Position numbers and translations under genes: made by a program
DNA from: Ignavibacteriota bacterium
GTDB lineage: Bacteria > Bacteroidota > Ignavibacteria > Kapaibacteriales > UBA2268
Direction: 5' to 3'
Assembly (NCBI GenBank): GCA_019637995.1
Contig: JAHBUQ010000002.1
Span: 573,428-637,427 of the forward strand
Length of the DNA stretch: 64,000 bases
In this document: positions 5,815 to 30,214 of the stretch, in pieces
Position numbering within the stretch: the first letter of the stretch is position 1
Layout: every line of letters starts with the position of its first letter
Notes under the pieces: model-generated
Told to the model about the DNA's origin: nothing
The model's database searches: none
Seen by the model: only the letters and a program-made list of their open reading frames with translations

Positions 5815-6684
5815 ATGCCTAAACAATTACTTAATTCACAGTACAGTACAGTACAGTACAGTACAGTACAGTACAGTACAGTACAGTATAAAACCTTCTT
5901 ACTTGTTTTGATAATGTTCATTTTAGGTAATATGAACATTTATGCTGATTCTGATCCCACCTCTTGTGATTGCAATTGCAATGAAATTTTAAAACCTAAG
6001 TATTTTTATGACGAGAACAGCATTATATTGTTAGATGATGGGAATGATTGCTCAATTTTTTCTGTTGATATAACAGGATGTAACGAAAGGACTGTTTTAG
6101 GTTTTACTTTGGATTTTGCGATTGACCCCGATGATCCTTGTTTGAATCAGAATTGGACAGTTAGAGACAAGGTAACTAACCAGATTATTGGCATTTATAA
6201 TCCAACTGTAACTAATCCGACATTTGGTTTCTTTGATCCGCCAGTACAACCTTGCGAAACAAGACCATTTTCTTTTAGAATATGCCCTGAAAACATTATG
6301 CACTGCAGATATAAATCTTTTAACATTGGTATCAATTTAATATTTGCTGAAGGTGACCCACCATGTCCTACTATTAACAAAACTTTAACTTTTGCATGGG
6401 TTAGCTCTGTTACACCTGATGATATTAGTGAATACGTACACTACAACCACAAAGAAGAGAATCTATTTATTGACTACAGCCACTTAATTACAAAGTTTCA
6501 ACAAAAAGATTTGAGAATAATAATTAGCAATCTAAATGGTGAGAATCTTCTTAATGATATTTTTAATCATAATCAATCTATAATTAATTTATCAAACCTC
6601 AGTAATGGTAAATATTTTGGCTATATTAGCCGAAATTATGGGACAGAAGTGTTAGCTACATTTATTTTTTCAATCATAAAATAG
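5815..6684 (+). CDS. Cys-rich secreted protein with pentanucleotide repeat, phase-variable candidate (ON)
   Basis: 289 residues. After MPKQLLNSQ comes a repetitive (YSTVQ)n segment encoded by a 5-bp repeat, then a hydrophobic signal peptide (FLLVLIMFILGNMNIYAD) and a Cys-rich mature part (CDCNC, then scattered Cys). The last ~75 residues look like a divergent T9SS sorting domain (LRIIISNLNGENL ... NLSNGKYFGYI). The start is supported by AAAGG 7 nt upstream. It heads an operon with two more secreted proteins, the next starting 12 bp later. Because the repeat unit is 5 bp, slippage by one unit shifts the frame. The two other frames hit a stop just after the tract (TAA 5889-5891, TGA 5909-5911). 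Function unknown; a surface or extracellular role is inferred. Confidence 0.75.
   Translation: MPKQLLNSQYSTVQYSTVQYSTVQYKTFLLVLIMFILGNMNIYADSDPTSCDCNCNEILKPKYFYDENSIILLDDGNDCSIFSVDITGCNERTVLGFTLDFAIDPDDPCLNQNWTVRDKVTNQIIGIYNPTVTNPTFGFFDPPVQPCETRPFSFRICPENIMHCRYKSFNIGINLIFAEGDPPCPTINKTLTFAWVSSVTPDDISEYVHYNHKEENLFIDYSHLITKFQQKDLRIIISNLNGENLLNDIFNHNQSIINLSNLSNGKYFGYISRNYGTEVLATFIFSIIK
5838..5888 (+). repeat. Pentanucleotide simple sequence repeat (GTACA)9
   Basis: Nine uninterrupted copies of GTACA at 5841-5885, with a partial unit on each side. It lies inside the coding region, starting 8 codons after the ATG and ending just before the signal peptide. Three units make 15 bp, encoding the five-residue repeat YSTVQ. 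Any change that is not a multiple of three units puts the rest of the gene out of frame. Confidence 0.95.
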
Positions 6685-17927: not shown

Positions 17928-19301
17928 TCAATTACCTATTTTCACAAAACCGCTTGTAACAGATAAGCCGGAACTATTGTAAAGCTGCAAATAATACGTT
18001 CCCTGCTCAAGACCGGAAATATCTATACGATAGCTTGACAACAACTCACTTTGCAATTTCCTGCCTTTAATATCGTAAATTTTGTATCGTTCGTAATGTT
18101 GTATCATATCGTGACTTAGAGTGATGAATGAGTATGCCGGGTTGGGATAGATCCCTAATTCTGTTGCTTCTTTAGAATTTACAGATAAAGGTAGTTTCCC
18201 TTTAAAAATACCATCATTTGAAGTGGCTAACAGAGGATTTTCTCCTAAAAATGTGATAAATTGATAAACTCTGTTTTGCTTTTGACTAACATCCTCAGGA
18301 CTTTCATTTATCCACGAGTTGCCACCATCGGTCGTTCTAAGTATTAAGCCGTTTGAACCGACTAAAATACCAATATCTAAATTATGAAAGGAAATATTGC
18401 TGAATGTTGAACTTGAATCCATAAATTCATAGATAACTTGCCAACTTTCACCGCCATCAATGGTTTTGAGAAGTACAGACTTTTTTTGGTCTTTTTCAAC
18501 ATTGTCATCTTCTGTTGCTATAATCCAGCCAGTTGATTTATCGAAGAAATATATATTCTTTATAAATATATATGGCTCATCCATCGTTTTCCTTTCAAAC
18601 AATGTTGTTAGATGCCAGGTATCTCCAAAATTACTTGTTTTTGCTATTACTGATTTTGTTTCAAGAAATTGCTCAGTTATTTTCTTGTGAAAAATCACAC
18701 TCACAAAGAAATTTCTTTCATCAATTGAACATACAAATTTTGTCGGAGTATTACTATTACGAACACTGAATCCTTCAGGTATCATTTCTTCATCAAAAAT
18801 TAACTCACGGTAACTATTCCAACCATCATTTGTTATAAAAACATAAGCAGGAAATCCGGCTATTCCTGATAAATTGTTATACATATCAATATCCCATACA
18901 GGCATATTTATTTTTCCTGTATGTTTCTGACTTACAAAAATAATTGTATCATGAATATTAGTAATCAAGTTATGAATAATCAAATGTGCATCACTTGAAC
19001 CAATAAATATTTTATCCCCAACAGGATATGAAATATTGGTTGAAGTCAGTGGAAATGGTTTGTTTGGTTGATTCACATCATCGTATAGTACATCCCAATT
19101 TAAACCAGCGTTAGTAGAATACATAAGTCTTCTATAAAAAGACTTATGTGCTAAAGCAGCACAAAGACTACCGTTTGCACAGTCAATTGATTGCACATAC
19201 TCACTATTTGTTCGAACCCTGTCCCATTCAATTTGTGAATTTAATATGGATGGTACAAATGTTATGAAAATTAAACCAATTATAATAAATCGAATTTTCA
19301 T
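17928..19301 (-). CDS. Secreted YCF48/Asp-box-like protein with T9SS sorting domain
   Basis: 457 residues: signal peptide (FIIIGLIFITFVPSILNS), a beta-propeller-like region with Asp-box motifs (KTIDGGESWQVI, RTTDGGNSWINES; an earlier STNAGLNWDVL) and a C-terminal sorting domain (LGIYPNPAYSFITLS ... KIYDIKGRKLQ ... GTYYLQLY). This sorting domain lacks the two palindrome-encoded insertions found in its neighbours. YCF48-like propellers in bacteria are secreted or assembly factors; the role here is unknown. The start follows the previous gene's stop by 2 nt and uses a Shine-Dalgarno inside that gene's last codons. Paralogous to 19304-20713 and 24494-25927. Confidence 0.8.
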   Translation of the reverse strand: MKIRFIIIGLIFITFVPSILNSQIEWDRVRTNSEYVQSIDCANGSLCAALAHKSFYRRLMYSTNAGLNWDVLYDDVNQPNKPFPLTSTNISYPVGDKIFIGSSDAHLIIHNLITNIHDTIIFVSQKHTGKINMPVWDIDMYNNLSGIAGFPAYVFITNDGWNSYRELIFDEEMIPEGFSVRNSNTPTKFVCSIDERNFFVSVIFHKKITEQFLETKSVIAKTSNFGDTWHLTTLFERKTMDEPYIFIKNIYFFDKSTGWIIATEDDNVEKDQKKSVLLKTIDGGESWQVIYEFMDSSSTFSNISFHNLDIGILVGSNGLILRTTDGGNSWINESPEDVSQKQNRVYQFITFLGENPLLATSNDGIFKGKLPLSVNSKEATELGIYPNPAYSFITLSHDMIQHYERYKIYDIKGRKLQSELLSSYRIDISGLEQGTYYLQLYNSSGLSVTSGFVKIGN

Positions 19302-19561
19302 CTCTATCTCTCCATTTTAATGAATTTATCAAAATAACTTCCAATTCTTATGAAATACACTCCTGCCGGCAAATGAGAGACATCAATTCTTAAATTCCCC
19401 TCACCCGTGGGTGTCAGCGCAGCTGACGGGGTGGATATGACTTCAATTCCAAGCATATCAAATATCTGCACTTTATCAACCAACCCATCAACCCTGCGGT
19501 TAACCGTAGGGTTGATTTCAGGGATAGAAATTGTAATGAAATCACTTGCGGGGTTGGGATA
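19298..19561 (-). repeat. Sorting-domain module copy A with two palindromic insertions
   Basis: About 260 bp nearly identical to 24488-24751 and, over most of its length, to 23279-23520. It encodes the T9SS sorting domain and, at its end, the Shine-Dalgarno and start of the next gene. Palindrome 1 (19402-19432) encodes the segment around PSAALTPTGEGN. Palindrome 2 (19489-19514) is a 26-bp near-perfect palindrome encoding the segment around NPTVNRRVDG. Both are richer in G+C than their surroundings. Confidence 0.85.
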
Positions 19562-20771: not shown

Positions 20772-22538
20772 TTAATTGACAATAATCACTTTCTCAGTCT
20801 TAACTGAAATACCATCAATAACAAGTGAATAAAAATAAACACCGTTTGAAAGGTTTATAGTGTTAAGATTAAGATGTTTGTTTGTATCAGTAAACACAAT
20901 ATTATGAATCACAGAACCATGCAAATTATAAATTTTAAGTTCTGCTTTCTGACCTTTTTTTATGTATTTACTTAAATCAATACTTTCTTTATTGTAATTA
21001 ATAGTACCGATTGTAGTATTTATATTTTCAATGTTGAAATTTTCAATTAATTTTTTATTTATTGCTAAAGGGTAAAAATCACCTATTAATAGCATCCAAT
21101 CACAATTTGGCAAACAAAAATACAAATTTCCCCAAATGTTTATGAAATTAAAACCACAAATTGAAAGCCAATCCGGTACAATATTTGGCATTACATGCAC
21201 ACCATTTGAATCCTTGCAAACTGTGATTGGCAATATACAACAATCAGAACTATCACATTTTACAGACACCATAACAGAATCAATCACAAAATCGAAAGGA
21301 TTATAAGTAGGGTCTAATATCGGGTCAGCTCTTCTCATATAGTACTCAGGATAAGTTGCCCAACAGCCACCTGAACCTACCTGCCAAGTAGTATCACATT
21401 GACCTGGTTGTTGAGGTTTAAATTGCATTTCGTTCATATTAATAATTTTTCCGAAAGCTTCTTTCATCAACAAATCCTTGCTGCATAACTCACATTGCCA
21501 ATTTTTTCTAACTAATGCAAGTATTTCCAATTCTTGCTTGCCTTGGCAAGTTCTTGTAACATAATTTACTTGAACATTACATCCCGGGCAAATATCAGAT
21601 GGGTAGATTGCTACATGATATTCCCAAGTTTCTCCCTCACATTCTGTCATACATGGTTCGGGTAAATCAATATCAATTGTGTCAGGAATATTTGTTGTAT
21701 CACAAAATTTGGTATGTGAAAGAATGCATGGATTAGGGTCGCCCGGATACCTGAGAAGTGTTATATATGCTTCACTTGTTTCACCCGGATTAATACATCC
21801 GTTATAATTTGATATAGGATAAGTTTCTATACTATGAGGTGGCTCTGAAGCAATAACATTCATAGGCAGATTATCGTAATAGTAGTATTTAAAGCAAGTA
21901 ATGTTATCAGGAATATTAAGATTATGAACAACGGCACATCCATCAGGACATAAATCGGGATTAGGTCCAACCGTAGTTGTAAACCAGCCATTAGTGGTTT
22001 CATCAGGACATTCGCAGCACTGGCTGGCATCTCTTGAATAAGAATATGAATTGTAACCCTCGGCAGGTTCTGAACTCCAAATACAGAAATAGTTACTTGT
22101 TCCCGGGTCAATGAAAGCGACTCTTATTTCAAAGATGTCCAATCCATATTTCGGACATATTAAGAAGCTGATATTTGAATTATAAGAATCATTGTAGTCA
22201 ACTGTTTCATACTCTTGCGTTATTGGATTAAACAACTGAAACAGGATTTTTGCAGAACAGTAGGGATTATAAATTTCAATAAAAACACAACAATTTGTAG
22301 TATCAGTGAAATTCACATCAATATAGTCACAGCATAAACTACTACTTATTTCATCTGATATTGCTTTGTTATAATTTGACAAAAATAGAATCATAATAGC
22401 TGCTATCAGTAAATATTTTGAAAAGCTGTTATGTAATAACTGCTGCTCTGCTGCTCTGCTGCTCTGCTGCTCTGCTGCTCTGCTGCTCTGCTGCTCTGCT
22501 GCTCTGCGAGCAGCTACTAAGTAAATATTCGACATCAT
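20772..22538 (-). CDS. Cys-rich secreted protein with octanucleotide repeat, phase-variable candidate (ON)
   Basis: 588 residues. The N terminus MMSNIYLVAAR is followed by an AAEQQSSR repeat encoded by an 8-bp tandem repeat, then a signal peptide (KYLLIAAIMILFLSNYNKAIS) and a Cys-rich mature region with paired Cys (LCCDYIDV, NCCVF, SQCCECP, CDSSDCCILP). The C terminus reads as a sorting domain (LKIYNLHGSVIHN ... LSNGVYFYSLVIDG). GGAGG lies 7 nt before the first ATG. It is a clear paralog of 25951-27706 (shared QPGQCDTTWQVGSGGCWA and other blocks), sharing its whole upstream region. In this sequence the tract leaves the gene in frame. Function unknown; surface display is inferred from the signal peptide and C terminus. 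Confidence 0.8.
   Translation of the reverse strand: MMSNIYLVAARRAAEQQSSRAAEQQSSRAAEQQLLHNSFSKYLLIAAIMILFLSNYNKAISDEISSSLCCDYIDVNFTDTTNCCVFIEIYNPYCSAKILFQLFNPITQEYETVDYNDSYNSNISFLICPKYGLDIFEIRVAFIDPGTSNYFCIWSSEPAEGYNSYSYSRDASQCCECPDETTNGWFTTTVGPNPDLCPDGCAVVHNLNIPDNITCFKYYYYDNLPMNVIASEPPHSIETYPISNYNGCINPGETSEAYITLLRYPGDPNPCILSHTKFCDTTNIPDTIDIDLPEPCMTECEGETWEYHVAIYPSDICPGCNVQVNYVTRTCQGKQELEILALVRKNWQCELCSKDLLMKEAFGKIINMNEMQFKPQQPGQCDTTWQVGSGGCWATYPEYYMRRADPILDPTYNPFDFVIDSVMVSVKCDSSDCCILPITVCKDSNGVHVMPNIVPDWLSICGFNFINIWGNLYFCLPNCDWMLLIGDFYPLAINKKLIENFNIENINTTIGTINYNKESIDLSKYIKKGQKAELKIYNLHGSVIHNIVFTDTNKHLNLNTINLSNGVYFYSLVIDGISVKTEKVIIVN
22441..22507 (-). repeat. Octanucleotide simple sequence repeat, 8 full units
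   Basis: Eight perfect copies of an 8-bp unit (plus strand GCTGCTCT) at 22442-22505 with partial units at both ends. It lies about 10 codons after the start and immediately before the signal peptide. Three units (24 bp) encode the eight-residue peptide repeat AAEQQSSR. Eight is not a multiple of three, so gain or loss of one unit shifts the frame. Confidence 0.96.
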
Positions 22539-22567
22539 AAAAAATCCTCCAAAAATTTATAAAATTG

Positions 22568-22590
22568 GTACAAATTTTGTTAATTTGTAC
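22568..22590 (-). promoter_or_regulatory. Inverted repeat GTACAAAT-N7-ATTTGTAC in leader of repeat protein
   Basis: A perfect 8-bp inverted repeat with a 7-nt spacer, about 17 nt upstream of the Shine-Dalgarno of the gene at 20772-22538. It could be an operator or an RNA hairpin in the 5' leader. It is conserved in the second copy at 27736-27758, but that may only reflect recent duplication. No clear TTTG/TAnnTTTG promoter is found nearby. Confidence 0.5.
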
Positions 22591-22717
22591 ATGATAAAGC
22601 CCCAAATCATTAAAATAAATTATCAAAGTGCTGATTCCTATATGCAACTTAATTCATTTTCAATTAATTTCCAAATTTTATTTTAAAATATTTTAAATGT
22701 TTTCCATTTTTATAAAA

Positions 22718-22750
22718 AAATCCACCGTATATTTTTCATACGATGGATTT
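22718..22750 (-). terminator. Terminator behind norZ tail copy 1
   Basis: A stem of 12 pairs out of 13 (AAATCCACCGTAT with ATACGATGGATTT), followed on the minus strand by a T-run. Identical to the norZ terminator at 27886-27918. It insulates the repeat protein from transcription reading out of the unit upstream. Confidence 0.85.
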
Positions 22751-22773
22751 ATTTTTATCTGCGATAGTTCTTT

Positions 22774-23192
22774 CTACTTTCTATTAACTTTTAATGTCAA
22801 TACGAACCAGGCAAATCCGATTGCACCAATTGCGAAAATAGTATCACCAAAAACACGCATCCACTTGAAGAAACCTACAACCGGTGTCTGCAAAAATTCA
22901 GCTGAACGTGCATACCATAATCCGTGATTTACACTTGCTATTGTCTGCAAAAGTCCGACCGGAAGCAAACTGAGTAATGCCATTGCCGCAAGACCAATAT
23001 TTATACTCCAGAATGAATATTTTAACAGTTTCTCATTCCACGCGATCTCTGTATTCATACTGCGGAGAACGAAAAGCATCAATCCGATACCCAACATTCC
23101 ATATACTCCGAAAAGTGCAGTATGACCGTGGAGTGGCGTTGTGTTTAAGCCCTGCATATAGTATAATGCAATAGGCGGATTAATCAAAAAGC
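22774..23192 (-). pseudogene. Truncated norZ 3' fragment
   Basis: Encodes the last ~139 residues of the quinol-dependent nitric oxide reductase, nearly identical to the intact norZ at 27942-30170 (INPPIALYYMQGLN, HGHTALFGVYGMLG, IFAIGAIGFAWF). It lacks the N-terminal extension and the part carrying the HLWVEG and FHHLY motifs. No Shine-Dalgarno precedes the first Met, and the break at 23192 runs straight into foreign sequence, so it is a duplication by-product rather than a gene. Confidence 0.9.
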
Positions 23193-23255: not shown

Positions 23256-24491
23256 TTACATCTTCACAAATTTCTCTACACGTGTGCCAATCCTAATGAA
23301 ATACACTCCTGCCGGCAAATGAGAGACATCAATTCTTAAATTCCCCTCACCCGTGGGTGTCAGCGCAGCTGACGGGGTAGATATGACTTCAATTCCAAGC
23401 ATATCAAATATCTGCACTTTATCAACCAACCCATCAACCCTGCGGTTAACCGTAGGGTTGATTTCAGGGATAGAAATTGTAATGAAATCACTTGCCGGGT
23501 TGGGATAGATCCCTAATTCTGTTGCTTCTTTAGAATTTACGGAAGTATTTTTAGAGATTACTTCTGCCAAAACCGATAATGAAGAAATTGCTATTTTTGA
23601 GTTATCATACAAATAATCTAAATTCAAATTTTCGAACTTATCATTTATACCGGAAGCAATGCTATCTATTGCTCTGTAAGAATTAGTAAAAGTTAGGTCA
23701 GAAACATGAGGTAATTGCGACCTAAGTGTAGCAAAGCCTTTAACTGTATTGTTTTTAAAAGTATTCAGATTCAAAACCTCAGTGGAGAATTTAAAAGTGG
23801 ATACAAGATGAGATGCTTTTACAGTATCTGAAGTAAAAAATGTATTTTCATTTTGGAAAAGTTCTCTTCCTAAACCCGTAAGAAAAATATTCTCCTGAAA
23901 TTCAATATCTGATTTATTTAAAGAATCCAACAAATGACCGGGACCATAACCTGAATCATAAACATCATCAAATCCTGCAAATACAATAGTTTTCTCATTT
24001 TCGTAACTTTTCAAGATTCTTGCTGCTTCGAGCATAATGGCAATACCTGTAGCATTTAAATTTGCACCGGGCAATGTATCAGTTAGTGGATCTACCATTA
24101 ATGAATAGCGTGTATCAAAGTTAGCTGAAAATAAAACAACATTTTGAGGTTTAGTTCTTCCGGGCTTAATAGCATAAGAGGTTTCCAAAGAAACAGTCCA
24201 GTTTGAAGGAAATACTGATACAAAGTGTGCATCATAACCATATTCGGCTAATTTATTTGTTATATACTTTGCAGCTAATTTATTAAGGTCTGACTTGTAA
24301 TACCTGTTAATAAATTTAATCTCCTGTCCATCAACAATCACAGTGTTTTCGCCTGACAAATCCTTGATTATCTGTTCAATATTTTCAATATTGACTTTTG
24401 ATGCAATTTCTTTTATAAGTATCTCATTAGATACTGAGCCGATTACAAAATACAACATAAAAAATATGATAATTATTGCTATTCTTTTCAT
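23256..24491 (-). CDS. Secreted M28-peptidase-like protein lacking zinc ligands, with T9SS sorting domain
   Basis: 411 residues. Signal peptide (RIAIIIIFFMLYFVIGSVS), then a fold that follows M28 aminopeptidases: VVLFSANFDT (122-127 aligns with GAHYDS), LPGANLNATGIAIMLEAARIL (aligns with PGADDNASG) and TIVFAGFDDVYDSGYG (aligns with the AFxxEE block). The zinc ligands are replaced: His by Asn, Asp by Leu, Glu-Glu by Asp-Val. It is therefore probably not an active peptidase. The C terminus is a sorting domain with the two palindromic insertions and ends RVEKFVKM. It is the last gene of the first array unit, starting 2 nt after the previous stop. Confidence 0.75.
   Translation of the reverse strand: MKRIAIIIIFFMLYFVIGSVSNEILIKEIASKVNIENIEQIIKDLSGENTVIVDGQEIKFINRYYKSDLNKLAAKYITNKLAEYGYDAHFVSVFPSNWTVSLETSYAIKPGRTKPQNVVLFSANFDTRYSLMVDPLTDTLPGANLNATGIAIMLEAARILKSYENEKTIVFAGFDDVYDSGYGPGHLLDSLNKSDIEFQENIFLTGLGRELFQNENTFFTSDTVKASHLVSTFKFSTEVLNLNTFKNNTVKGFATLRSQLPHVSDLTFTNSYRAIDSIASGINDKFENLNLDYLYDNSKIAISSLSVLAEVISKNTSVNSKEATELGIYPNPASDFITISIPEINPTVNRRVDGLVDKVQIFDMLGIEVISTPSAALTPTGEGNLRIDVSHLPAGVYFIRIGTRVEKFVKM
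23279..23520 (-). repeat. Sorting-domain module copy B
   Basis: Nearly identical to copies A and C across the sorting domain, including palindrome 1 (23348-23378) and palindrome 2 (23435-23460). Its 3' end differs from A and C. Upstream of it, the codons for NSKEATELGIYPNPA match the gene at 17928-19301 instead, so this sorting domain is a mosaic. Confidence 0.85.
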
Positions 24492-24751
24492 CTCTATCTC
24501 TCCATTTTAATGAATTTATCAAAATAACTTCCAATTCTTATGAAATACACTCCTGCCGGCAAATGAGAGACATCAATTCTTAAATTCCCCTCACCCGTGG
24601 GTGTCAGCGCAGCTGACGGGGTAGATATGACTTCAATTCCAAGCATATCAAATATCTGCACTTTATCAACCAACCCATCAACCCTGCGGTTAACCGTAGG
24701 GTTGATTTCAGGGATAGAAATTGTAATATAATCACTTGCAGGGTTGGGGTA
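24488..24751 (-). repeat. Sorting-domain module copy C
   Basis: Matches copy A base for base over almost all its length, including the last codons, the stop, and the Shine-Dalgarno and ATG of the following gene. Palindrome 1 is at 24592-24622, palindrome 2 at 24679-24704. Similarity stops near 24751, where the two host proteins diverge. Confidence 0.85.
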
Positions 24752-25950: not shown

Positions 25951-27706
25951 CTATTTTATAATAATAATTTTGTCGGATTTGATAACAACACCATCAAAAT
26001 AAATATTATAAAAATAAATACCGTTATTCAAATCTGAAAAATCGAATTCTTCATTTGTTACATTATTAGTTGTTTTCAATTGAATATTCTTAATTACTCT
26101 GCCCTGTAGATCGAATATTTTAATAGAAGCACTCGTAATGTCCGGTTTAAAGTAAGTAAGTCCTAATTTTGAATTAACCCATTGAGTATGTATTTCCTTG
26201 TTATTTAAATTCTTAATAATATTTTTATTTAACATAATATTCTCATACACTGGGGGAGACCATGGTTCTATTTCAAGGGAATCTAACCAGTTACAATTAG
26301 GAGCACAGTCAAATTGTCTTCCATAAATGTCAGTAGTCTTAATAGAATCACAATTGCTGTGAAGTGGTCCAATATCACGATAAACTCTAATACCATCAGG
26401 ATACCTACAAACTTTAATTGGGATAAAACAACAGTCTGTAGAATCACATTTCACATGATGAAGTATTGAGTCGCGAACGAATATGGGAAATGGATTTTGA
26501 GTTGGGTCAGGCATTGGGTCTGGAAATACGATTTTCCAATAATACAAATAGTATGACGCCCAACAGCCACCTGAACCTACCTGCCAAGTAGTATCACATT
26601 GACCTGGATCTTGAGGTTGAAATTGCATCTGATTTTCATAAACAATAAAATTAAAAGCCTTTCTCATTAATGAAGCATTATTATAACTGCTACTACATCC
26701 CGGGCCACTTATCGAAATCATAGTAATTTCTAATTCCTGTTTACCACAGTTGTCTCTTGTATAATAGTAAATTTTCGCGTTACAATCAACATCCAATGGC
26801 ATATCAATTGTTCTCAAATCCCATATTCCTGCACAATCTGTTGAACAAGGGTCAGGAACATCAGGATCAGGTGCTATAGTAGTATCACATATTGCTTCAG
26901 CAAACATCTCACAAGCTTCCGGGTCATTAGGATAGCGTTGCAGCATTATCGCCGGTGATGTAGTTGTACCATAAGGCATACAACCATCATACATCGAAAT
27001 AGGTTCATTTGTAAGACTTCTGTTTATATTAATATCATTAATGCCTTGTGGGATATTTTCATAAGAGTAATATTTATAACAAGTAATATTCTCAGGTATA
27101 TTTAGGGTATGAACGTATCGGCATCCATCAGGACAACTTGGGTCTGCAAAAGCTTGAACGGTAAACCAAGTATTTTGATGAGGAGGACATTCGCAGCACT
27201 GGCTGGCATCAGTTTCAAAGGTAAATGAATTCCACCCTTCTTCGCGATAGAATCCTGTATTACACCAGTACTTATTTTCATCTCCCGTATCAACAACCGA
27301 AACTCTGAATTTTAAAATAGTTTCCCCATTTTCAGGACAAATAATGAACTTAACTGTATCATTATAAACTCCTTCTAAATGTTTTGTTTCATATTGTTGG
27401 GTAACAGGATTATAGTATTGGAACTTAAAATTGGCGTCACAATCCAGGTTGTATGCAGAAATCTCAACACAGCAATTGTCAGCCGGTCTATAATCTACAC
27501 TGACACACCAACAACAAACTCCTTCGGGACACGTTGTTAAAGAGTATGAATTATGATAACAAATCATAATTGCAACTATTATTGTAAAGAATAAAGTAGA
27601 ACCATTAAACCTGCTCTGCTGCTCTGCTGCTCTGCTGCTCTGCTGCTCTGCTGCTCTGCTGCTCTGCAGCTCTGCGAGCAGCTACTAAGTAAATATTCGA
27701 CATCAT
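25951..27706 (-). CDS. Cys-rich secreted protein with octanucleotide repeat, out of frame (phase OFF)
   Basis: Paralog of 20772-22538. The ATG at 27706 (GGAGG upstream) reads MMSNIYLVAARRAAEQQSSR... and then stops at TAA 27605-27607, after 33 codons. The long downstream frame is open from the repeat tract: it reads through a signal peptide (RFNGSTLFFTIIVAIMICY) into 538 further residues of Cys-rich sequence (CCWCVSVD, NCCVEI, SQCCECP, QPGQCDTTWQVGSGGCWA) and ends in a sorting domain (IKIFDLQGRVIKN ... LNNGIYFYNIYFDG). The two frames differ by one base; adding one 8-bp unit, or losing two, joins them. The Met at 27567 lies inside the signal peptide and is unlikely to be a real start. The rest of the reading frame is intact, arguing for a switch rather than decay. 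Confidence 0.8.
27611..27675 (-). repeat. Octanucleotide simple sequence repeat, about 8 units with one variant
   Basis: Six perfect 8-bp units (27618-27665), a seven-base partial unit on the downstream side and one unit with a T-to-A change next to the start codon (27666-27673). Same unit and position as at 22441-22507, but the total length leaves the gene out of frame. Confidence 0.95.
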
Positions 27707-27735
27707 AAAAAATCCTCCAAAAATTTATAAAATTG

Positions 27736-27758
27736 GTACAAATTTTGTTAATTTGTAC
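27736..27758 (-). promoter_or_regulatory. Inverted repeat GTACAAAT-N7-ATTTGTAC in leader of repeat protein
   Basis: Second copy of the element at 22568-22590, identical in sequence and in position relative to the start codon. Confidence 0.5.
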
Positions 27759-27885
27759 ATGATAAAGCCCCAAATCATTAAAATAAATTATCAAAGTGCT
27801 GATTCCTATATGCAACTTAATTCATTTTCAATTAATTTCCAAATTTTATTTTAAAATATTTTAAATGTTTTCCATTTTTATAAAA

Positions 27886-27918
27886 AAATCCACCGTATAT
27901 TTTTCATACGATGGATTT
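27886..27918 (-). terminator. norZ terminator
   Basis: A stem of 12 pairs out of 13 with a 7-nt loop, followed on the minus strand by a run of seven T. It lies 24 bp past the norZ stop. Confidence 0.88.
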
Positions 27919-27941
27919 ATTTTTATCTGCGATAGTTCTTT

Positions 27942-30170
27942 CTACTTTCTATTAACTTTTAATGTCAATACGAACCAGGCAAATCCGATTGCACCAATTG
28001 CGAAAATAGTATCACCAAAAACACGCATCCACTTGAAGAAACCTACAACCGGTGTCTGCAAAAATTCAGCTGAACGTGCATACCATAATCCGTGATTTAC
28101 ACTTGCTATTGTCTGCAAAAGTCCGACCGGAAGCAAACTGAGTAATGCCATTGCCGCAAGACCAATATTTATACTCCAGAATGAATATTTTAACAGTTTC
28201 TCATTCCACGCGATCTCTGTATTCATACTGCGGAGAACAAATAGCATCAATCCGATACCCAACATTCCATATACTCCGAAAAGTGCAGTATGACCGTGGA
28301 GTGGCGTTGTATTTAAGCCCTGCATATAGTATAATGCAATAGGCGGATTAATCAAAAAGCCAAAAATTCCGGCACCTACAAGATTCCAAAAGGCAACTGC
28401 AATGAAGCTGTATATTGCCCATTTATATTTTTCAAGCCAAACAGTTGCTTTACTTATTTTCAGATTATGAAATACTTCAAAGCCAATCATCACAAGAGGC
28501 ACGACCTCCAGAGCGCTGAATGTTGCTCCAAGAGCCAGTACTTCGATTGGTGTTCCCGAAAAATACAGGTGATGAAATGTACCTAATATACCACCGGACA
28601 GGAATACTGTAGTAGATGTTAATGATGCGACTGTTGCGGTCTTTATTTTAAGCAAACCAAGTTTCACAAATAAGAATGCAATTACAACAGTTGCAAAAAC
28701 TTCAAAGAAACCTTCAACCCAGAGATGTACCACCCACCAGCGCCAGTACTCAGTAATAGCAAGATGAGTGCGCTGTCCCCACATCAATCCTGCACCATAG
28801 AAAAGAGCTATTGCGATGATTGATATTGCAAAAAGTATCAGCAAGGGTTTGTTCTCATCAGCTTTTTTGATGGCAGGCATAAGTGGTCTGAACATCAGTA
28901 CTAACCATATTATTAAACCTACGAAGAGGAATATCTGCCAGAATCGCCCTAAATCAACATATTCCAAACCTTGGTGACCGAACCAGAAGTTTGCAGTATA
29001 ACCTAATTTCTGCATAATTCCGAACCATTGACCTGCAAGAGAGCCGACAACTATAATTAAAAGAGCTATAAACAGGAAATTCACCCCAAATTTTTGATAT
29101 TTCGGCTCATAACCTGAAATAGCCGGAGCAATGAACATTCCGGTTGCAAGCCATGAAGTAGCAATCCAGAATATCCCAAGCTGAACGTGCCAGGTACGTG
29201 TAAGACTGTAAGGCATAAAATCAGCAATCGGGATTGAATAGAAAGCCTGACCTTCAACACCATAGTGAGCTGTTACAATACCTGAAATTATCTGTGCTAC
29301 AATTAACAATACCACAACCCACAAATATTTCAGTATTGCATGCATTGATGGGGTGATGGTAAGTCCAGCCATCGGATTAGTAACTGGATAGGAATCAGGG
29401 TGGTCTTCTTTCGTAGATGCATGCAGGAATATCATTCCACCAATACCGGCTATAAGCATAATTACGCTGAAACCTGTCCAGAGCATAAGACTTCCTGCCG
29501 GTTTATTTTCTACTAATTCTTCGTGGGGCCAGTTATTAGTATAGGATATATCCTGTCCGGGACGTTGAGTTACTGCCGCCCATGCAGTCCAGAAGAAGAA
29601 CGCATTTAACTTTTCCATTCTATCTTCATCCTGGATTGTATTATTTTTCATTGCATACGCTTTTCGCAACTCGAGATACTCAGGGTCATTCATAAAGAGC
29701 TTTCTGTAATGCTCGCTGTTTGACTGATATGCTCTTGCTCTGACTTCAGATATTGCTACAGTTTCTGTTTCAGGGTCGTAAGAATTGAATCTTATGTCCT
29801 TGATTAATCTCGCTTTCAGTGCTGCTTTCTTTTCGACATCAAGTTTTTCATACTCAACGCCAAATTCGGCTCTACTAAAGTCATTCAGTATAAAAACTGC
29901 TTCTCTGTGGAGCCAGTCTGCTGTCCAGTCCGGAGCAATGTATGCTCCATGTCCCCAAACAGAGCCCAGTTGCTGACCACCCGTAGAATGCCATACATTT
30001 TGTCCGTCAAGTATGTCTTCGCTTTCTGCAATCAGATTGCCGTTAGCATCTATTATCTTCAAAGGGATGGGCGGTTTTTCACGGTAGATTTCTCCGCCAT
30101 AATAAAGCAATACGGCGAACGAAATACCGATTACTGCACTTAAAATATACCAGTATTTTTTGTAACTCAT
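27942..30170 (-). CDS. norZ: Quinol-dependent nitric oxide reductase
   Basis: 742 residues from the ATG at 30170, which has GGAG 8 nt upstream; an in-frame ATG at 30209 lacks one. A single-chain qNOR: a membrane anchor (YILSAVIGISFAVLLYYGG), a periplasmic cytochrome-c-like extension without a haem CxxCH motif (GQNVWHSTGGQQLGSVWGHGAYIAPDW), then about 12 NorB-type membrane segments with metal-ligand regions VVHLWVEGFFEV and GTFHHLYFSG, and HGHTALFGVYG. It reduces nitric oxide to nitrous oxide with electrons from the quinol pool, for detoxification or denitrification. It is divergent from a TetR gene that may control it, and upstream of the secreted-protein array with a terminator between. Confidence 0.93.
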   Translation of the reverse strand: MSYKKYWYILSAVIGISFAVLLYYGGEIYREKPPIPLKIIDANGNLIAESEDILDGQNVWHSTGGQQLGSVWGHGAYIAPDWTADWLHREAVFILNDFSRAEFGVEYEKLDVEKKAALKARLIKDIRFNSYDPETETVAISEVRARAYQSNSEHYRKLFMNDPEYLELRKAYAMKNNTIQDEDRMEKLNAFFFWTAWAAVTQRPGQDISYTNNWPHEELVENKPAGSLMLWTGFSVIMLIAGIGGMIFLHASTKEDHPDSYPVTNPMAGLTITPSMHAILKYLWVVVLLIVAQIISGIVTAHYGVEGQAFYSIPIADFMPYSLTRTWHVQLGIFWIATSWLATGMFIAPAISGYEPKYQKFGVNFLFIALLIIVVGSLAGQWFGIMQKLGYTANFWFGHQGLEYVDLGRFWQIFLFVGLIIWLVLMFRPLMPAIKKADENKPLLILFAISIIAIALFYGAGLMWGQRTHLAITEYWRWWVVHLWVEGFFEVFATVVIAFLFVKLGLLKIKTATVASLTSTTVFLSGGILGTFHHLYFSGTPIEVLALGATFSALEVVPLVMIGFEVFHNLKISKATVWLEKYKWAIYSFIAVAFWNLVGAGIFGFLINPPIALYYMQGLNTTPLHGHTALFGVYGMLGIGLMLFVLRSMNTEIAWNEKLLKYSFWSINIGLAAMALLSLLPVGLLQTIASVNHGLWYARSAEFLQTPVVGFFKWMRVFGDTIFAIGAIGFAWFVLTLKVNRK

Positions 30171-30194
30171 AGTAATTCTCCAAAAGTTTTTTAA

Positions 30195-30214
30195 ATCAGA
30201 CAAATTCATCTGAT
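30195..30214 (-). promoter_or_regulatory. Inverted repeat in the norZ leader
   Basis: ATCAGA and TCTGAT flank an 8-nt spacer just upstream of the norZ Shine-Dalgarno. Separately, the direct repeat TACGTT occurs at 30362-30367 and 30371-30376, nearer the TetR gene. Both lie in the 250-bp divergent region; either could be a regulator site, but neither is proven. Confidence 0.3.

Follow-up and report, generated by a model that had tools for sequence, protein, structure and literature searches.

What is the function of a perfect octanucleotide repeat that stands between the start codon of a gene and the signal peptide which that gene appears to encode? The question is raised by gene A, which lies in a window of 64,000 nucleotides, the whole stretch of DNA analysed here. 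As judged from sequence features, the repeat, tract A, very probably makes gene A translationally phase-variable (a contingency gene) by serving as its switch, operated by slipped-strand mispairing.

The tract and its reading frame

The features of gene A on which the argument builds are the following.

20772..22538, minus strand: gene A, 588 aa, Cys-rich secreted protein with a T9SS C-terminal sorting domain (TIGR04183)
22440..22507, minus strand: octanucleotide tract A, (AGAGCAGC)8.5, in frame (ON), found with Tandem Repeats Finder
22498..22514, minus strand: inverted repeat GCTGCTC-GCA-GAGCAGC at the 5' edge of tract A, read from the sequence

The ATG of gene A at 22538 is preceded by a GGAGG ribosome-binding site (22546-22550, minus strand) and followed in order by ATGATGTCGAATATTTACTTAGTAGCTGCTCGC, the tract (AGAGCAGC)8.5, a hydrophobic stretch, the Cys-rich mature part and the T9SS sorting domain. 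The tract begins about 12 codons past the ATG and encodes RAAEQQSS repeats; the hydrophobic stretch downstream of it, YLLIAAIMILFLS, is typical of a signal peptide, so that the placement of the tract between ATG and signal peptide, as an earlier note on this DNA had it, is borne out. That note had also described eight perfect 8-bp units at 22441-22507. The array is indeed perfect (period 8, 100% matches), but it comprises 8.5 copies and starts at 22440. Its G+C content of 63%, against 34% and 31% in the 500-bp flanks, agrees with the description of the unit as G+C-rich relative to its surroundings.

Substantiating secretion of the product is a TIGR04183 score of 27.4 bits, above the curated NCBIfam cut-off of 23, which marks gene A as T9SS cargo; with Pfam Por_Secre_tail the score is 25.5 bits, slightly under the cut-off of 27. 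Together with the signal-peptide-like stretch, the T9SS CTD assigns gene A to the secretion class among envelope, secretion and restriction genes. The AlphaFold model of the product is weak (pLDDT 60.8), and fibronectin-III/Ig-like structure matches were discarded at TM-scores below 0.25 to the query, nothing being used beyond the description "beta-rich".

With a unit length not divisible by three and a position within the 5' coding region, the tract is laid out like that of a gene with SSR-mediated translational phase variation. In a frame table covering 2 to 14 units, gene A is open to codon 588 at its present 8 units, as the ON state proposed earlier implies, and equally open at 2, 5, 11 and 14; at all other counts translation terminates ahead of or within the signal peptide, 25-54 codons from the start, which is what the earlier prediction that OFF cells make no exported product calls for. 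The corresponding table for the paralogous gene B (0 to 12 units) follows the same rule: a change of one unit truncates, and changes by multiples of three restore.

These properties suggest how the switch could work. During replication the 8-bp units would slip, adding or removing one or more of them, while the ribosome would always start at the ATG with its Shine-Dalgarno (SD) sequence upstream of the tract. Because eight is not a multiple of three, each single-unit change would shift the signal peptide and the mature protein out of frame, and the frame would be restored by two further changes in the same direction or by one back. ON cells would thus display or release a T9SS-exported Cys-rich protein, and OFF cells would make a peptide of 25-54 aa only. 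A high rate of unit-number change in living populations, the slippage mechanism itself, the export and surface location of the product and a benefit of switching, for example in evading phage or predators, are what we infer from this arrangement.

The 3' arm of the inverted repeat at 22498-22514 forms part of the first unit of tract A. An analogous inverted repeat, GGCGGCTC-GAA-GAGCCGCC, precedes the GGACAGCC tracts in the leaders of three other loci of this genome (L129, L130 and L209, described below). Short GC-rich inverted repeats thus mark precisely the 5' border of two distinct octanucleotide tracts, where they may have seeded the tract or may stall the polymerase.

The paralogue B and the duplicated upstream segment

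Gene B and the segments upstream of both genes are laid out as follows.

25951..27706, minus strand: paralogous gene B with T9SS CTD, ATG at 27706, gene frame +1
27611..27675, minus strand: octanucleotide tract B, OFF (out of frame), of 8.1 copies including the variant unit AGAGCTGC, found with Tandem Repeats Finder
22508..23192, minus strand: upstream module of A, comprising the 5'UTR, the promoter region and the 3' end of norB; differs from 27676-28360 at 3 of 684 bp
27676..28360, minus strand: upstream module of B, the same sequence as the A module, continuous with the intact norB
27942-30209, minus strand: intact norB, upstream of gene B
22774..23187, minus strand: 3' fragment of norB left by duplication, upstream of gene A

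Gene B has the same first codons as gene A, and its product carries the sorting domain at 36.7 bits (TIGR04183, NCBIfam cut-off 23). The frame set by its ATG stops after 33 codons, and the +1 gene frame is open for 576 codons; as assembled, gene B is therefore OFF, and one additional unit would open it.

The two genes lie behind direct repeats (22443-23192 and 27611-28360) of 750 bp that are 99.5% identical and 5,168 bp apart, each holding part of the tract, the start codon, everything upstream of it and the final 414 bp of norB. The near-identity is lost within the tract. As the mature parts are only 42-43% identical, compared with 99.5% over the 750 bp, the upstream part must have been copied or converted recently. 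Downstream of A and B are genes with YCF48-like propeller and T9SS domains; in several other genomes, too, the A/B homologue is followed by a partner of this kind. The 3' CTD-coding ends of three neighbouring T9SS genes (19295-19558, 23287-23510 and 24485-24748) are 97-98% identical over 218-264 bp, and the genes differ elsewhere; such near-identical ends may have arisen by gene conversion or by shuffling of sorting domains.

The direct repeats raise the question of whether RecA-dependent recombination between them is the main source of variation, deleting the 5.2-kb B operon and putting A behind norB, with the tract being incidental. Their identity and spacing are suited to such an event, and the 97-98% identical CTD-coding ends nearby are in keeping with it. 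We nevertheless consider this explanation very unlikely, as it leaves unexplained the tracts at 5838, L074, L087 and L129, where no such repeats are known.

Tracts elsewhere in the genome

The genome comprises 3.92 Mb in 6 contigs and has at least 150 T9SS-domain matches. Tracts were surveyed in 1.25 Mb (32% of the genome), made up of the window and of stretches chosen to hold T9SS gene starts; the rest was covered by pattern searches. The earlier note had proposed a scan for further tracts at gene starts, and the survey did find others, of period 5 and period 8:

5838..5888, plus strand: pentanucleotide tract (ACAGT)10.2, ON, after the ATG at 5815 of a 289-aa secreted gene (5815-6684)
L074, own genome: tract with unit AACAGAGC, ON
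L129, own genome: tract with unit GGACAGCC and some GGAAAGCC, OFF

Six tracts of period 4-9 with at least 3.5 copies are present in the 1.25 Mb, namely A, B, the one at 5838, L074, L129 and an intergenic 7-mer in L133. Five of the six, with A and B not being independent in this count, fall within the opening codons of genes for secreted proteins; these, by our estimate, account for no more than a few per cent of the DNA sampled. Simulated sequence (Markov-1) contained no tract of period 4-9 with at least 3.5 copies; for period 8 alone, 4 were observed in the 1.25 Mb and 0 expected. The arrays are far longer than chance would yield, a mark of the phase-variable class of genes.

The ACAGT tract is the sole occurrence in the genome, and so is a C14 tract among C/G homopolymers of 10 or more in the whole 3.92 Mb. 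The latter immediately follows the L087 gene's ATG, itself preceded by an SD sequence; the L087 protein has a T9SS domain and is a hit to the A profile (E 1.8e-8). The product of L074 is rich in Cys, begins with what resembles a signal peptide and shows no sorting domain of its own; direct BLAST did not link it to A, and hhalign was not significant for either L074 or the 5815 protein. Since L087 alone is a clear domain relative, we claim no single protein family for the tract-bearing genes.

The intergenic (CTGATAC)5.4 in L133 (11259-11296) was rejected as a gene-start tract, no ORF start being found before it; it lies upstream of a short lipoprotein-like ORF, and promoter-type variation is possible there. 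An 11-bp repeat, (TCTCAACGAAT)n, was seen beyond the window in a conserved promoter-like module of the same genome, with 2.8-10.9 copies (L075:5810-5885, L079:2511-2553, L082:17246-17321, L101:15380-15499, L108:480-533, L133:17890-17920 and L145:4500-4542). The genes about 200-300 bp downstream of it mostly begin with signal-peptide-like sequence, and the pattern of repeat plus flank occurs in eight places genome-wide. As 11 bp is about one helical turn, this repeat could tune promoter spacing.

Relatives and the distribution of ON and OFF states

Among the genome contigs scanned, five relatives were found, none of the same species, labelled as Candidatus Kapaibacterium, Ignavibacteria or Bacteroidota MAGs. 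The congener G002 has (GCAGCACA)4.1 in its orthologue of the L209 gene and (CGCAGCAT)2.25 in that of A/B; in the congener G001, a tract (TATTCATT)4.5 lies within the region coding for the signal peptide, with only a short open frame following it; and in G019, of another genus in the same family, two homologues of the L209 gene have (AATACTTC)3.5 and (TTCAATGG)3.9 behind a similar leader. The unit TTCAATGG, on the minus strand of G019 L212, contains an ATG, and this tract could offer starts in another frame. Poly-C tracts of 12-15 follow the ATG in G009, G017, G020 (two loci) and G041, which represents a different family of the order; those found at contig ends in relatives were set aside as assembly artefacts. 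Two Cys-rich proteins of G014 (L246, L261) have G12 tracts just past the putative signal peptide, a placement that differs from that of the tracts before the signal peptide. No octanucleotide tract was seen at a gene start in 400 kb sampled from G022/G020, so that the abundance of these tracts differs between lineages.

We tallied 13 tract-bearing loci from the own genome, G001, G002 and G019. In all 13 the ATG lies upstream of the tract, nearly always with a plausible SD sequence. Five are ON and eight OFF, which is close to the one-third ON expected of a random frame and unlike a fixed coding repeat; tract lengths could carry assembly error, most of the genomes being MAGs. OFF genes for the most part retain long, uninterrupted frames (about 338-1304 aa), the exception being G001 L185 with an open frame of only 125 aa.

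This distribution bears on two other explanations. Could the tract be kept for its peptide, a Q/R/A-rich N-terminal extension of the signal peptide, rather than for switching? Gene A is in frame, and RAAEQQSS is a cyclic octapeptide that reads identically whichever frame is used, so that no change of length would abolish the extension. However, the units AGAGCAGC, GGACAGCC, AACAGAGC, GCAGCACA, TATTCATT, AATACTTC, TTCAATGG, ACAGT and C14 differ by locus and species and their peptides are unrelated, most of the tallied loci are out of frame, and no gene-start tract has a period divisible by three, which together make a role of the peptide very improbable. The earlier suggestion that the tract is selected for slippage and not for peptide function is instead supported: gene-start periods are 1, 5 and 8 and never a multiple of three, the genes downstream of the eight out-of-frame tracts are mostly intact, the units differ while period 8 is constant in four species, and near-identical paralogues differ in unit number.

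Alternatively, the tracts could be neutral slippage debris or assembly frameshift errors, and the OFF genes decaying pseudogenes. Tracts can be created by chance duplication, some of the genomes are fragmented MAGs, and the short frame of G001 L185 would fit decay. But their concentration at the starts of secreted-protein genes, the long frames retained by the other OFF genes, a dN/dS of about 0.10 between two OFF paralogues (see below) and the 8-bp unit, atypical as a sequencing error, render this origin highly improbable.

Shared leader modules

A leader ATGTATTCTAATTTATTTTTAGGCGGCTCG[A/C]AGAGCCGCC followed by (GGACAGCC)n occurs in three places in the genome, L129, L130 and L209, and is absent from the viral contigs scanned. 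L129 (about 12 units) and L130 (about 2 units) are DUF7948/SBBP paralogues; L209 (4.5 units) encodes a T9SS protein unrelated to them. L129 and L209 are alike from -168 to +73 relative to the ATG, with no similarity past the tract, and L129 and L130 are about 94% identical just upstream of the tract and 96-97% downstream, yet about ten units apart. The repeat number thus ranges over about 12, 2 and 4.5 behind near-identical 5' ends, within one genome. Over the 750 nt past the tract, L129 and L130 give dN 0.019 and dS 0.194; both are OFF, yet selection on them is purifying, as it would be for genes that are expressed from time to time.

The three GGACAGCC loci share one out-of-frame state (+2). 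By chance this would happen with a probability of 1/9, and a different explanation is conceivable for them. Out-of-frame loci might be rescued by programmed frameshifting or a non-canonical start, with a GC-rich hairpin as the stimulator and the tract as a mere spacer; the inverted repeats before the AGAGCAGC and GGACAGCC tracts and the common +2 frame would suit such a device. Behind one and the same leader, however, the frame is 0 for A and +1 for B, the L074, 5815 and G002 loci are all in frame 0, and no clear slippery heptamer was seen. We therefore hold rescue by frameshifting to be most unlikely, and return to phase variation by change in unit number as the preferred explanation.

The two tract loci of G002 likewise have a common leader, ATGAAAAAGTATTTC..., and share -129 to +39 and little else. 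In three genomes, then, promoter, ATG, leader and tract form a shared module in which similarity ends at the tract, and in two of the three the module is attached to unrelated genes. Tentatively, and with somewhat less than even confidence, we propose that in this family of bacteria promoter, SD/ATG, short leader and frame-shifting tract constitute a transplantable "switch cassette" copied before unrelated secreted genes. The tract would be its downstream edge and its unit sequence would be replaced over evolution with period 8 being kept, yielding a modular phasome of T9SS cargo. Such modules suggest a route by which new genes could be placed under an existing stochastic switch.

Comparison with known systems

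Phase variation by SSRs has mainly been described in pathogens and commensals adapted to a host. A set of octanucleotide switches on T9SS proteins in an uncultured lineage related to Kapabacteria/Ignavibacteria suggests that stochastic surface switching may also serve bacteria that have no animal immunity to escape, perhaps as a defence against phage or protozoan predators. A full-text search of limited literature returned no description of such a system for Kapabacteria, T9SS or Bacteroidetes phase variation, which does not prove its absence.

The precedent is provided by the SSR contingency loci of Haemophilus, Neisseria and Campylobacter, which vary in phase by slipped-strand mispairing (PMC2651432, PMC5953494, PMC6321876). 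With Haemophilus our loci share non-triplet short tandem repeats and reversible switching of surface genes, demonstrated or proposed (PMC2651432), as well as several unit types per genome and paralogues differing in copy number (PMC2651432, PMC3309571). However, Haemophilus has mostly tetranucleotides, and its cited octanucleotide tracts, those of hmw1A/hmw2A in Haemophilus influenzae biogroup aegyptius, lie in promoters (PMC3309571), whereas here octanucleotides dominate and are placed at the beginning of the coding sequence, ahead of the signal peptide; the lineage is related to Kapabacteria/Ignavibacteria, and the genes encode T9SS cargo. The Campylobacter and Neisseria phasomes (PhasomeIt) resemble ours in having poly-G/C and other SSRs inside the coding sequence of surface-structure genes, with ON and OFF set by frame (PMC6321876, PMC5953494); the genes are unrelated, though, and this genome has a single poly-C tract, the rest being mainly 8-bp units, and promoter-leader-tract modules are shared by unrelated genes. 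The TAACTGA heptamer arrays of Beggiatoaceae, Cyanobacteria and some Bacteroidetes are likewise short direct repeats near start codons in environmental bacteria, but they consist of one conserved heptamer, mostly just upstream of the start, and are a proposed regulator binding site (PMC4679880), while our units vary freely in sequence and lie downstream of the ATG. What appears to set the present system apart is thus its lineage, the dominance of 8-bp units with turnover of sequence at constant period, the T9SS cargo and the occurrence of its modules on unrelated genes.
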